Positions 57,623 to 63,969 of a DNA stretch of 64,000 nucleotides are shown in pieces. Position 1 is the first letter of the stretch. Each line of letters opens with the position of its first letter. Source of the stretch: Bacteroidota bacterium (GTDB taxonomy: Bacteria > Bacteroidota > Bacteroidia > JAFLBG01); contig JAFLBG010000010.1 in NCBI GenBank assembly GCA_017303975.1, positions 1 through 64,000 on the forward strand, written 5' to 3'. The translations under genes and the position numbers were made by a program. Under the pieces are notes generated by a model, which was not told the origin of the DNA, searched no databases, and saw only the letters and a program-made list of their open reading frames with translations.

Positions 57623-58996
57623 CTAATGACTAATGATCAATCTTTTTGCCGTTCCTAGTTCATTATCTACTTTTATAAGATAGATACCATTCGGTATAGA
57701 TTCTGTATTTATAGTTACACTATTCAATCCCTGCGTTTCTTTTACAATTATTTCATTGCCTAGCATATCTAGAATTGAAATTTGCTGTTTGGAAACATCT
57801 TTTAGATTTATGGTTACACTTTCGTTTGCCGGATTTGGGAACGTATTTGATATACTAGATTGTACACTTCTTATTCCAGCAAGCCCTTGAGTATTTATAA
57901 CAGTTATCGACTGTGCAGAAAAAATTGTAGTACAAGTTGTACTTGAGCAAGAATCACTTGTTAGTATTGTTAAACAAACTTGATATGTACCCACATTTGC
58001 GTAAGTATGTGAAGGATACTGCTGGTTTGAAGTATTCCCATCTCCAAAACTCCAGAAGTAACTTACTGAGCCATTCCACGATACATATGGATAGAACAAA
58101 TAAGAGTTGCTACTTAAATTTGAACTATCTAAGCTACTATATAGTTGAATAGAGCATGAAGAACCAGAAGACGAACAATTTACTATAACAGACTCACAAT
58201 GACTAACACTGCAATTATTTGCACTATCCGTTACTGTTAAACACACTGTATATGTTCCAGGGGCTGCATAAGTGTGGCCCTCTGGACCGGTATAGGAAGT
58301 ATATACATTTCCATCACCAAAATCCCATGAAAAAGTTGTACTAGCGCCTACTTGACTCAATTTATACAAAGCAGGAACGAAGTAAGTTATTCCATTAGTA
58401 CAACCCGAATCATTGTAGGTAAATGCTGCATCACAAGGATTTGTTTTAATTTGATATCCACCTTGTGTTTGGCAGCCAATATTATCTGTTACAGTTAATC
58501 CATAAAATCCTGTGCACATGGCAGTATTTGACCAAACTGATCCTGAAAGAGATACTAAAACATTGTTTGGATCTACTAGCGTGTAAGGACTAACTCCACC
58601 GGAAATAGATATGATTACAGAACCATCACAATTAAGTGATGAGCTTGCGTCTATTGTTGTTATTGCTATTTGAGGTGGGGAGCATGCATTTGTAATGGAA
58701 ATTGTAGTATCGCAAGCAAAAGAACTACATAGCGAATCATATAAACATACAGTAAAGTTGCCATTTTGCGAGTAGGTATGAGTAGGATTCTGTGCATTCC
58801 CATAATAGCCATCTCCAAAATCCCAAGCATATTGTCCGAATGTAGAATTAGATGATGTGTTTGAAAAAGTTACCTGATTACCATTCGTGACTGAATAACT
58901 AAATGATGTTACACAATTTTGTGCTTTACTAGTAAGAGCAAAACAAAGAATAATAGCTACTAAAATTCTTTGAAATTTTTTGATTGTTGTTTTCAT
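57623..58996 (-). CDS. PKD-repeat secreted protein with T9SS sorting domain
   Basis: 457 aa. Signal peptide (residues 1-25, ALTSKAQ). Three PKD domains: ~28-110 (AWDFGDGYYGNAQNPTHTYS), ~190-275 (SWDFGDGNVYTSYTG), ~285-370 (FWSFGDGNTSNQQYPSHTYA). C-terminal type A sorting domain (~385-457: NTFPNPANESVTINLKD, IPNGIYLIKVDNELG). PKD repeats usually mediate binding to surface polymers. Last gene of a minus-strand group with the RiPP-like peptide gene. Confidence 0.88.
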   Translation of the reverse strand: MKTTIKKFQRILVAIILCFALTSKAQNCVTSFSYSVTNGNQVTFSNTSSNSTFGQYAWDFGDGYYGNAQNPTHTYSQNGNFTVCLYDSLCSSFACDTTISITNACSPPQIAITTIDASSSLNCDGSVIISISGGVSPYTLVDPNNVLVSLSGSVWSNTAMCTGFYGLTVTDNIGCQTQGGYQIKTNPCDAAFTYNDSGCTNGITYFVPALYKLSQVGASTTFSWDFGDGNVYTSYTGPEGHTYAAPGTYTVCLTVTDSANNCSVSHCESVIVNCSSSGSSCSIQLYSSLDSSNLSSNSYLFYPYVSWNGSVSYFWSFGDGNTSNQQYPSHTYANVGTYQVCLTILTSDSCSSTTCTTIFSAQSITVINTQGLAGIRSVQSSISNTFPNPANESVTINLKDVSKQQISILDMLGNEIIVKETQGLNSVTINTESIPNGIYLIKVDNELGTAKRLIISH

Positions 58997-59056: not shown

Positions 59057-59425
59057 TTAACATACTGCTGCGCTAATGCAAGCCAATGCACCTCCTCCGA
59101 TACTTACAGCAACACACCCAACAAAATCCTTTGTTTGTATTCCATTACAATAGATATTATTGGAGTCTCCACAAACTAATTCAGATGCCTTGTCGCCAAC
59201 AGTAAAAGACTCATTCTCTTCCAGATATGACTTCACTGCACAAGTAATTCCAACTACAACTGTAGTTTGTCCTGTTGGAACAGCTGTTGTAGCGCTAACG
59301 ACAGCACTCGTAAGTGCCGCCTCTCCTTTTTGACCGGCAATAGTTAATTGTGAAGAGGGTTCTAAATTTGTAATAAAGCTTTGTACTTTAATTTCAGTCA
59401 AGCTAAATTTCTTGATTGGTTTCAT
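59057..59425 (-). CDS. RiPP-like precursor protein with a Bacteroidota class-I leader
   Basis: 122 aa. Residues 1-~30 (KFSLTEIKVQSFITNLEPSS) resemble the leader of pinensin-type/class I lanthipeptides of Bacteroidota (KLxLxxLKVxSF). The remainder is rich in Ser/Thr/Gly with six Cys at 62, 85, 93, 104, 116 and 122, and ends SIGGGALACISAAVC. No modification enzyme (LanB/LanC) or C39 transporter is in the window, so it may be modified elsewhere or be a non-lanthionine secreted peptide. Leader similarity is by eye. Confidence 0.5.
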   Translation of the reverse strand: MKPIKKFSLTEIKVQSFITNLEPSSQLTIAGQKGEAALTSAVVSATTAVPTGQTTVVVGITCAVKSYLEENESFTVGDKASELVCGDSNNIYCNGIQTKDFVGCVAVSIGGGALACISAAVC

Positions 59426-59452
59426 AACAATTAGTTTTTAGTGATTAATACT

Positions 59453-59587
59453 TTATTTAATTAAAAGATTGAAAAATCCAAAAGCCATAACCGAGAAAAC
59501 GGTTATTACTAATACATGAGAAAATAGGTTTATTAGTTTCTCTGATTTTTTATTTGTGTGCGCATTTGCTGTTTTCATGGCTGACAT
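59453..59587 (-). CDS. Small membrane peptide upstream of the RiPP-like gene
   Basis: 44 aa, not in the usual length cutoffs. MSAMKTANAHTNKKSEKLIN followed by a transmembrane segment (VLVITVFSVMAFGFFNLL). Starts at ATG 59587 (or the ATG three codons in) and ends TAA 59453-59455, 27 bases before the RiPP-like gene on the same strand. Possibly an immunity or processing partner; no evidence beyond position and hydrophobicity. Confidence 0.4.
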   Translation of the reverse strand: MSAMKTANAHTNKKSEKLINLFSHVLVITVFSVMAFGFFNLLIK

Positions 59588-60030
59588 CTTTTTATTTATT
59601 TATAATTAATTTCTTGATACAAACTTCGGCTAAGAAATTCAGTAAGACGAATTAGAATTTCAATTTTCTTACGCATTCAAATACCATTTCAGCATAAAAT
59701 ATTCTCCATAGAGAAAGAAAAAAAACTCTTTAGTCTCCCGAAAAGCCTAATCCATAGCAGTAGGAGCATTAGTTCAATTAGCTTTCATAGCATATCGCTT
59801 GGCATGTATTACGAAAATCATGGTGATACAATTTCACACTGAGCAGCAATAAAAATGGCCCTAGGGGTGGATGGGGAGAGACTGGCTTATGAGAAAGCGC
59901 ATGCGATTGCCACCGCAATTAGCTCACAATTTTTAGCGCTAGTATCTTTTAATTGACAAAACGCTCTAAACAAGAACAGCCATACTAAGCATAGTATGGC
60001 TGTTTTATAATAATGCTTTACTACTAAAAA
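59588..60030. other. Intergenic region without a clear gene, with a GC-richer stretch
   Basis: 443 bases between the small membrane peptide and the T9SS gene at 60031. It holds the hairpin at 59975-60004 and a GC-richer stretch near 59850-59940, in which a 33-codon plus-strand frame (59855-59956) opens with MALGVDGERLAYEKAHAIAT. The frame lacks family resemblance and may be decayed sequence. Confidence 0.4.
59975..60004 (-). terminator. Terminator-like hairpin downstream of the 60031 gene
   Basis: 13-bp perfect arms (59975-59987, 59992-60004), loop AGCA. On the minus strand it lies 27 bases after the stop at 60031 and is followed by TTGTTT, a modest U-run. Confidence 0.65.
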
Positions 60031-60900: not shown

Positions 60901-62406
60901 ATGGATATTCTAATTCAATTAATTTCATCTCTATCCAAAGAAGAACAGCGCAACTTTAAACTTTTCTTAAACAGAACCAACAGTTCCGCAGAGCGAAAAG
61001 ATGAAATGCTATTCAATTACATTAAGAACTCATACCCAAATTACGATGAAGAAAATATAAACAAAAAACTTTACTACACAGAAGATAAAAATGCACTCTA
61101 TCGGCTTAAAAACAGGCTAGCCGAAGATGTTTCTAAAAGCTTATATCTGCTACACTACGCTATTTCAGATTACAATAAGTGCCTATACTATATTTCTCTG
61201 AGCCATGTTTTTTTTAACAAGAAAAACAAAACATTACTTCAATTCTTTATTAAAAAGGCCGAGGTGACAGGAGTTCAAAATGAATTTTACGATCTGCTTA
61301 TCGTTATTTATAATTTTAAAATAAAAATTGCATCAGACTTTTTAGAAGTAAGTCCGGAAGAATTTATAAACCAACGAAACAACGCACAAAAAACATTAGA
61401 TAAACTGAATCAAATAGAGGAAGTTGTTGCCGTATTATCATACCGTATAAGAACTTTCCAACTACACACATCTTCTAAACAGAATAAAGTACTAGAATTA
61501 CTTGAGAAAACAATCAAAGAATTTTCAAAAGACAAAACCATTAAAAACAGCACCACGTTTAAAGTAAAAACATACAATGCAATTAGTCGTATACTTCTAC
61601 AAAAACAAGACTACGTTTCACTAGAACGGTATTTGCGACACACCTATGCAGATTTCAAAAAAAATAATCTGTTTGACAAAAATAATCACGAAGTGAAAAT
61701 TCAGTTAATTACATATTGGATAAATGCTCTTTATAAAAATCAGAAATACTACGATTCGTTAAAACTAACAACAGAGCTTAAAAATGCTATCGAAGAGTTT
61801 AATTATTTACATTACGAAAAGTACTTATTCTTTTACTACAACTCTCGTATTATAAATTATTCAACCTTAGAAAACTCCTTTGAAAAAAGAGTATCTATTT
61901 TAACTGAAGCCATAAATAATCATATTATACAAAAACAGACGAATCACTTGGCAATTCTGTATTCTAACTTAGCGTTGGCATATTTTGACAACCAAGATTA
62001 TAAAAATGCACTTAGAAATATTTTAAAACTTATAAATAGCAGACATTTTGAACAACTGGACATGGGATTTCAATGCAAATTAATTTTTGCAGAACTAATG
62101 ATTCGCTTCGAATTAAATGACATTGAGTATGTATCTGCTCAATTTTTAAAAATAAAAAGAAAATACAATGCGTTCTTAAAACTTCCATCCAACTCTAGAG
62201 ATAAAGATTTCCTAAATCTTTTAACTCTACTGTCCAAAGATTATCGACACACGAAAAAGAAAAAGCTTGTGATTTCGTCATTAAAAATATTTACAAATAA
62301 ATACAGTAACGAAAACTATAATGACGTTATAAACTACAACCCTTGGATAGAAAAGCAAATAGAGATAATTAAAGGACACACTACTAATAAATTGCAAAAT
62401 CATTAG
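60901..62406 (+). CDS. Large alpha-helical protein, paralog 1
   Basis: 501 aa, no signal peptide, strongly Lys/Asn/Tyr/Leu-rich and probably all-helical with TPR-like pairs (ILYSNLALAYFDNQDYKNAL). The N-terminal SSLSKEEQRNFKLFLNR pattern is shared with the next gene (KSLTKGEKRYFKLFAGM), which shows paralogy. Similar proteins exist in other Bacteroidota; no function is known to me. 24 bases before paralog 2. Confidence 0.7.
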   Translation: MDILIQLISSLSKEEQRNFKLFLNRTNSSAERKDEMLFNYIKNSYPNYDEENINKKLYYTEDKNALYRLKNRLAEDVSKSLYLLHYAISDYNKCLYYISLSHVFFNKKNKTLLQFFIKKAEVTGVQNEFYDLLIVIYNFKIKIASDFLEVSPEEFINQRNNAQKTLDKLNQIEEVVAVLSYRIRTFQLHTSSKQNKVLELLEKTIKEFSKDKTIKNSTTFKVKTYNAISRILLQKQDYVSLERYLRHTYADFKKNNLFDKNNHEVKIQLITYWINALYKNQKYYDSLKLTTELKNAIEEFNYLHYEKYLFFYYNSRIINYSTLENSFEKRVSILTEAINNHIIQKQTNHLAILYSNLALAYFDNQDYKNALRNILKLINSRHFEQLDMGFQCKLIFAELMIRFELNDIEYVSAQFLKIKRKYNAFLKLPSNSRDKDFLNLLTLLSKDYRHTKKKKLVISSLKIFTNKYSNENYNDVINYNPWIEKQIEIIKGHTTNKLQNH

Positions 62407-62430: not shown

Positions 62431-63969
62431 ATGCAAAAAGTAATCAACAAATTAGGCAAAAAGGATTTATTTAATCTTATCAAATCGCTTACAAAAGGCG
62501 AAAAAAGATATTTCAAACTTTTTGCCGGTATGCAAGAAGGGGAAAAACACTACCTAAAAGTATTCGACATAATTGAAATGATGGAAGAATACGATGACGA
62601 TGAAATAATTGAAAAAATTGCTGACAAAAAAATTATAAAAAATTTACATGCCGTAAAACATTACTTGTTTGAGTTGATTTTAAAAAGTTTACGAGTATAC
62701 AACTCAGATAAAAACAGCCAATATACGCTACAGAACAAACTACTGGATATTGATATACTTTTAGAAAAGGGGTTAAATGATATAGCCTATTTATGGATTA
62801 CTAAAGCATTAAAAACGTCTAGCGAAATAGAAGAGTTTAATCTTATCTATTCGTTTTTAGCAAAGAAAGATAACTTTCACATCAAAACTCGTTTCGTAAA
62901 TATTGACGAGTCTGACCTAGAAAAACATATACTGCAAAAAAAAGACTCCTTATCTAATATTTCTGAATTCGAAAACAATAAAGAGCTCTTAGATAAGCTT
63001 GAGTTTATAAATAAAAAGGGCCTTTTCTCTGTTGCGGAAAGTGGAGAAAAAATCAAACAATTACTTCAGAGCACACATTTACAAAAAGAGAAATACACAA
63101 CTGTAAGAGCAAGTTTAGATTATTATTATATAAAATTGCTTGAAGCGTATTTCAATAATAACTCAGAGGATGGATTAAAACATTCGATTGCATTTTTAAA
63201 CACCCTAGAAACATCTCCATCTTTAATTCAGCACAGCCCTCTTAGATACCTCTATTCTATTATTAATGTTATTTCATCCTGCAGTATACTTCAGTACTAT
63301 AAAAAGTCTATTGAATTTTGCGACAAGCTAAAACAAAACTTAAACACCTATAAAAATGTCATTAATGTTAACGAATATAACAATATAGTTGTTACCCAGC
63401 TTATTCATAAAGCATGGGGGGAAATACACCTACCTATTACCACTAATAAATCTGACACTCCATCACAGTTAGAAAAATACTGTGATGCAAATGAAGAAAT
63501 AACATCAAAAGAAAGAATGATAAACTGTTATTTTGCATTAACAAAAGTTTATTTTTTCAATGGTAACTATAAAAAGTCATTGCAATTTGCAAATAAACTA
63601 ATTGCCTTCGAAAACAGCGACATACAAGCAGATTACTTTATTGCAGGACGTATAATACAAATACTTACACATATAGAAAAAGAAAATTTCTTAGTAGCAA
63701 AAAACCTCATAAGAGAATTTGAGAAACTTCCGGTTTTATATAAGTCTCAGTCAGTATTCATTTCAGTAGCTAAAATTTACTATAAGTTATTTACGAATAA
63801 AAAAGAGCTTGATGACAAACTAAAAATTGAATATGAGAACGTAAGAGAACTTCAAAAAAACGAGAAAGAGCAATTCTTCTATAGACATTGCTATTTGGAT
63901 ATTTGGCTACAAAGCAAACTAGAGAAAAAGCCTATTTTACAATTAATTCAACAATTAACCAGAGACTAA
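62431..63969 (+). CDS. Large alpha-helical protein, paralog 2
   Basis: 512 aa, same architecture as the upstream gene: N-terminal LIKSLTKGEKRYFKLFAGM, long helical body with TPR-like stretch (INCYFALTKVYFFNGNYKKS), Lys-rich C-terminus. Identity to paralog 1 is low outside the N-terminus. Its stop (TAATG) overlaps the start of the next gene, so they are likely cotranscribed. Confidence 0.7.
   Translation: MQKVINKLGKKDLFNLIKSLTKGEKRYFKLFAGMQEGEKHYLKVFDIIEMMEEYDDDEIIEKIADKKIIKNLHAVKHYLFELILKSLRVYNSDKNSQYTLQNKLLDIDILLEKGLNDIAYLWITKALKTSSEIEEFNLIYSFLAKKDNFHIKTRFVNIDESDLEKHILQKKDSLSNISEFENNKELLDKLEFINKKGLFSVAESGEKIKQLLQSTHLQKEKYTTVRASLDYYYIKLLEAYFNNNSEDGLKHSIAFLNTLETSPSLIQHSPLRYLYSIINVISSCSILQYYKKSIEFCDKLKQNLNTYKNVINVNEYNNIVVTQLIHKAWGEIHLPITTNKSDTPSQLEKYCDANEEITSKERMINCYFALTKVYFFNGNYKKSLQFANKLIAFENSDIQADYFIAGRIIQILTHIEKENFLVAKNLIREFEKLPVLYKSQSVFISVAKIYYKLFTNKKELDDKLKIEYENVRELQKNEKEQFFYRHCYLDIWLQSKLEKKPILQLIQQLTRD

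Follow-up and report, generated by a model that had tools for sequence, protein, structure and literature searches.

We analysed the first 64,000 nt (hereafter the window) of contig JAFLBG010000010.1 from a Bacteroidota bacterium (assembly GCA_017303975.1). The window carries a gene for a 122 amino acid (aa) protein that has a pinensin-type leader and a core with six Cys (Table 1). We consider it probable (roughly 0.6) that the genome encodes a split class I lanthipeptide system of the pinensin type, acting in trans, and that this protein is among its twelve precursors. Established are the leader family, its twelve copies, the enzymes, the conserved motifs and the clustering of homologues with such precursors elsewhere. 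We infer that the scattered precursors and enzymes work together in this cell and that the six-Cys core acquires thioethers instead of leaving with disulfides.

The precursor gene and its family

The 122-aa open reading frame (ORF) is a real gene. The genome, 99.8% complete and comprising 3.43 Mb in 70 contigs, also holds four paralogues of it, with identities of 73, 50, 49 and 45%, and the five sequences can be aligned over their full length with all six core Cys invariant. Comparison of the window copy with the paralogue on contig C13 gave a nonsynonymous rate (dN) of 0.21 and a synonymous rate (dS) of 1.44 for the whole gene (dN/dS ∼0.15), versus dN of 0.16 and dS of 1.74 for the core (dN/dS ∼0.09), so that selection constrains the core more strongly than the leader. 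The ORF also resembles a gene in its codon usage, with a score that was reached by 2.7% of shadow ORFs.

An initial annotation, made from the sequence of the window, had described here a 122-aa ORF with six Cys and a 44-aa membrane peptide, and both ORFs are present at the positions given, the 44-aa one with a single hydrophobic stretch. The T9SS protein that it had placed downstream is likewise real, with PKD domains and a T9SS sorting domain. It had also seen a likeness of the N-terminal region to lanthipeptide leaders, which proved to be more than chance: the NCBIfam profile NF038180 (leader_pinensin, ‘pinensin family lanthipeptide’) scored 33.7 bits on the precursor, the curated cut-off being 24 bits. 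The core, ∼90 aa with six Cys, is unusually long, as had been stated; pinensin cores are near 20 residues. A Pfam scan of the 122 aa found no family above threshold; Neurensin was tried as an identity of the precursor and rejected, its score being below the cut-off. Structure prediction gave no confident model (predicted local distance difference test score, pLDDT, of 32).

Table 1. Features of the window and enzyme genes elsewhere in the genome (positions without a contig name refer to the window)
Feature	Position	Strand	Basis or remark
Precursor gene, 122 aa, pinensin-type leader and six-Cys core	59057..59425	−	NF038180 above cut-off, four full-length paralogues, purifying selection
Leader, residues 1-32 (MKPIKKFSLTEIKVQSFITNLEPSSQLTIAGQ), with C-terminal double-glycine-like site G-Q	59330..59425	−	NF038180 match at residues 5-31; position equivalent to GG/GA of paralogues
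Core, residues 33-122; Cys 62, 85, 93, 104, 116 and 122 invariant in five paralogues	59060..59329	−	Alignment
44-aa ORF, one predicted membrane span, 27 bp upstream of precursor; membership doubtful	59453..59587	−	Sequence, hydropathy
Protein with PKD domains secreted by the type IX secretion system (T9SS), 60 bp downstream of precursor, possibly co-transcribed; neighbour, no known pathway part	57623..58996	−	PKD_4 and Por_Secre_tail
Helical repeat protein, ∼500 aa; neighbour	60901..62406	+	Family near 6 of 8 precursor loci
Second helical repeat protein, same family	62431..63969	+	Family near 6 of 8 precursor loci
LanB glutamylation protein (LanB_N, PF04738), 1016 aa	C23:10320-13370	−	Profile search; single copy
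Elimination protein (LanB_C, PF14028), 332 aa, directly after LanB_N	C23:9258-10256	−	Profile search; single copy
LanC-like protein (PF05147), 661 aa	C10:68380-70365	+	Profile search; single copy
C39-peptidase ABC transporter, followed by HlyD adaptor	C8:30959-33151 (transporter)	+	Profile search; single copy

The genome was searched by protein family and in separate stretches. A profile search for paralogues of the leader found 12 copies of NF038180 over the cut-off, at eight loci on eight contigs. The six-Cys core of ∼90 aa is common to five members, the window copy (contig C10), C13, C24, C6a and C4a. In other precursors the core is of unrelated sequence: C7 contains two near-repeats of LATQCC.A.DTSC.TV, ten Cys are present in C5a, and C6b is free of Cys. 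In the tandem pair C4a/C4b the leaders are 78% identical and the cores 20% identical, which fits leader-guided processing of unlike cores. An element shared upstream of precursors reads GGTAACTTTGAATCAT in C4a and C4b (L012) and GTAATTTTGAATCAT in C24 (L010); it contains TAnnTTTG, the Bacteroidota −7 promoter consensus.

The leader is rare, occurring in six of the 395 genomes sampled from the class and in four of the 396 from the phylum (this genome counted in both). No relatives of the six-Cys core were detected in the GTDB species collection by pattern and tblastn searches, which reach near relatives only, and the single match, in Fulvivirga imtechensis, was to the leader. The order of this genome is represented in the comparison collection by this genome alone.

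Modification and export enzymes

According to the initial annotation no modifying enzymes were nearby. This holds inside the window but not for the contig, where the LanC gene lies 9.0 kb from the precursor, 4.4 kb past the end of the window. The other enzymes are on other contigs, and the genome contains exactly one LanB_N, one LanB_C, one LanC-like protein and one C39-peptidase ABC transporter with HlyD (Table 1). As in pinensin-type systems, LanB is split, with separate glutamylation and elimination proteins adjacent on C23, and LanC is a stand-alone protein with zinc motifs, related to LanM cyclases. Unlike a pinensin-type precursor, which would share one cluster with its enzymes, the window precursor is encoded apart from its putative enzymes.

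The LanC motifs GFSHG, WCHG and LCHG are intact, LanB has the motif KTSPFSTFT and the C39 domain has DCGPTC; judged by these motifs, the enzymes look functional. The best NCBIfam match of LanC, TIGR03897, is below the cut-off of that family and begins only at position 542. This protein, the only LanC-like one of the genome, is without a LanM dehydratase domain. The nearest solved relatives by sequence are the LicM2 cyclase domain for LanC, the TbtB dehydratase for LanB_N, TbtD and MibB for the elimination protein, and PCAT1-type transporters for the C39 transporter, the last match spanning the full protein, C39 domain included. A gene for a sigma-54-type response regulator (C10:67212-68375; L031:6713-7876) stands before the only LanC gene, which starts 4 bp after it, and LanC may be controlled together with this regulator.

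Homologues of the scattered genes form a single cluster in genome G354, with C39-ABC, HlyD, LanB_N, LanB_C, four NF038180 precursors (on the opposite strand) and LanC. Identities between the scattered set and the G354 genes are 65% (C39), 47% (LanB_C), 43% (LanB_N) and 38% (LanC, including a C-terminal extension that the G354 LanC carries as well). Clustering of these homologues with four precursors makes the scattered genes look like components of a single pathway. A compact cluster of like kind, with one precursor, is present in genome G343. The layout of genome G046 is dispersed too: seven leader matches are on six contigs, LanB_N is on its contig C8, LanB_C on its C14 and C10, and LanC on its C8 and C10, where one leader adjoins LanC and LanB_C. 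Among the 395 class genomes LanB and LanC occur together in 33, and in four of the five with over-cut-off leaders (Fisher P = 2e-4; P = 0.002 when the genome of the window is excluded). In a genome from the phylum set, G628, we observed four NF038180 leaders on four contigs (L088, L091, L092 and L093), at least two of which precede long Cys-rich cores, in precursors totalling 108 and 120 aa; a search of that genome for PF14028 elimination proteins found none.

Given a single enzyme set far from nearly all of the precursors, and homologues clustered with precursors in G354, the window precursor is probably acted on in trans, as the initial annotation had thought possible; the leader homologues and the peptidase/transporter system on which its proposal depended are both present. 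In the proposed route the conserved leader would recruit the single LanB pair from C23, which would dehydrate Ser/Thr of the core, and the LanC-like protein would close thioether rings by addition of Cys thiols. Cleavage at the double-glycine-like site and export of the core would fall to the C39-peptidase ABC transporter and its HlyD partner. The findings suggest that the many different leader-tagged peptides, most of them rich in Cys, are finished by one shared machine.

Alternative readings and neighbouring genes

Several findings weigh against a trans-acting lanthipeptide system that has the six-Cys protein among its substrates. Seven of the eight precursor loci have no pathway enzyme in the stretches read. 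LanB_N and LanC are absent from genomes G011 and G156, which have weaker leader matches, so the leader by itself does not imply lanthionine; in G011 one leader is next to a C39/HlyD pair and two elimination-type proteins. The window precursor has no excess of Ser/Thr 2–6 residues upstream of Cys as compared with shuffled sequences (P = 0.63), and the six-Cys subfamily as a whole does no better. Finally, the cleavage site of the window precursor is G-Q; it is the sole copy with Q, all paralogues having G or A there (GG/GA).

Ser/Thr-Cys spacing was tried as support for thioethers in the six-Cys subfamily and failed. The spacing signal is present in the six other Cys-bearing precursors of the genome, outside the subfamily (combined P = 0.002), and in the precursors clustered in G354 (P = 0.01). 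The six-Cys subfamily may therefore carry thioethers, with no support from spacing, which likewise does not favour the lanthionine or methyllanthionine that the mature window product may contain. The main rival is disulfide export. In that case the leader of the subfamily would serve export only, the C39 transporter cutting and secreting a ∼90-aa peptide with three disulfides while LanB and LanC serve the other, mostly shorter precursors. We regard this as rather unlikely. In its favour, all six Cys are conserved in a long core whose sequence is held more tightly than that of the leader, and the spacing signal is missing in this subfamily; yet the leader belongs to the same family as those of precursors clustered with LanB and LanC, and the invariant Ser 81, 88 and 118 sit 4–5 residues ahead of invariant Cys, albeit at a frequency not above expectation.

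The G-Q site could also mark the window copy as a paralogue that is decaying or out of use, its cleavage site spoilt and its processing lost. This is improbable. Its leader does have a dN/dS versus C13 above the core value, and no other copy has the Q; against decay stand the core dN/dS of ∼0.09, the intact frame and the gene-like codon usage. A cut after A30-G31 is conceivable as well, since A-G sites occur in G046_C5 and Fulvivirga. In the window precursor the single C39 ABC transporter with HlyD would act on a putative double-glycine-type site with the letters G-Q.

A new leader-guided secretion type, involving the 44-aa membrane peptide or the T9SS neighbour, had been raised in the initial annotation, and we give it very little credence. 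The genes are adjacent on one strand, and T9SS cargo genes adjoin several precursor loci. However, an exporter of known type (C39 ABC with HlyD) is present in the genome, its C39 protein 65% identical to one clustered with such precursors, and the Pfam scan detected no T9SS sorting domain in the precursor. The role proposed for the 44-aa peptide was not borne out either, as no homologues were found near other precursors; coding support for this ORF is weak (its score is matched by 10.6% of shadow ORFs).

Most precursor loci (C4, C5, C6, C7, C10, C13 and C24) have large T9SS cargo genes (PKD, SprB, DUF7948, sorting domains) as neighbours. C24 and C4 have a pair of similar T9SS genes in common, which suggests spread by segmental duplication. 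An inverted repeat (AACAGCCATACTA...TAGTATGGCTGTT) at window positions 59975-60004, between a 226-aa T9SS gene and the 44-aa/precursor unit, is a possible terminator separating transcription units.

The two helical repeat genes of the window belong to a family of all-helical proteins with 16 copies genome-wide that lies within 5 kb of six of the eight precursor loci (P ∼5e-7 under random placement), a count biased by a search model that was built from the copies nearest precursors. Besides the window, copies near precursors are on contigs C5, C6, C7, C13 and C24. In G046 the family is within 2 kb of two of six loci (P = 0.01). Clustering of both helical repeat genes and precursors in variable regions could explain the association. 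No Pfam or NCBIfam family matched these proteins, and in a fold search all matches were weak, generic and TPR-like, none of them reaching E ≤ 0.001. TPR genes near other RiPP (ribosomally synthesized and post-translationally modified peptide) loci of Bacteroidales were suggested to have a regulatory role (PMC10352776); a similar role for the helical repeat proteins is only an idea, by analogy.

Relation to known systems

The precursors described here have the same curated leader family as pinensins, the class I lanthipeptides of Chitinophaga pinensis (precursor family I 17 of Walker et al. 2020). A split LanB and LanCs related to LanM cyclase domains characterize pinensin-type systems (Walker et al. 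2020, PMC7268733), and here too LanB is split and LanC is nearest LanM cyclase domains. Unlike in pinensins, the genes are scattered, there are twelve precursors and one subfamily has a ∼90-aa six-Cys core. More generally, Bacteroidota class I precursors carry the leader motif LxLxKx5L, in many cases with GG at the end, and genes for C39 peptidases lie close by (PMC7268733). LahT150, a C39 peptidase domain specific for GG, can cleave the leader of PedA15.2 from Pedobacter lusitanus, a Bacteroidota class I lanthipeptide as the candidate products here would be (PMC12328550).

Walker et al. 2020 searched seven genes on each side of LanC, and by their own account scattered prochlorosins were missed for that reason (PMC7268733). 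Genome mining for lanthipeptides seeks precursors near enzymes, and a dispersed class I system would be missed likewise. No paper on such a system was found in the literature searched, which is no proof that none exists. If the enzymes accept all twelve leaders, they would make a natural class I set tolerating cores of ∼36 to 99 residues, of use in engineering.

Prochlorosin precursors are scattered over the genome (PMC10783134). As with prochlorosins and synechococsins (class II, ProcM/SyncM, marine picocyanobacteria), the genome described here combines one enzyme set with many scattered single-gene precursors (12, at eight loci on eight contigs) that have shared leaders and unlike cores, some without Cys. 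This is an analogy of layout, not membership: prochlorosins have LanM and a Nif11-type leader, whereas here we found class I LanB/LanC and the NF038180 leader, with no LanM seen. Tentatively, and at not quite even odds, we propose that Bacteroidota hold a class I counterpart of prochlorosins, in which a substrate-tolerant split LanB/LanC acts in trans on scattered precursors, including a new subfamily with a ∼90-aa core and six invariant Cys. If true, scattered production of lanthipeptides from many substrates exists beyond the cyanobacterial LanM systems.
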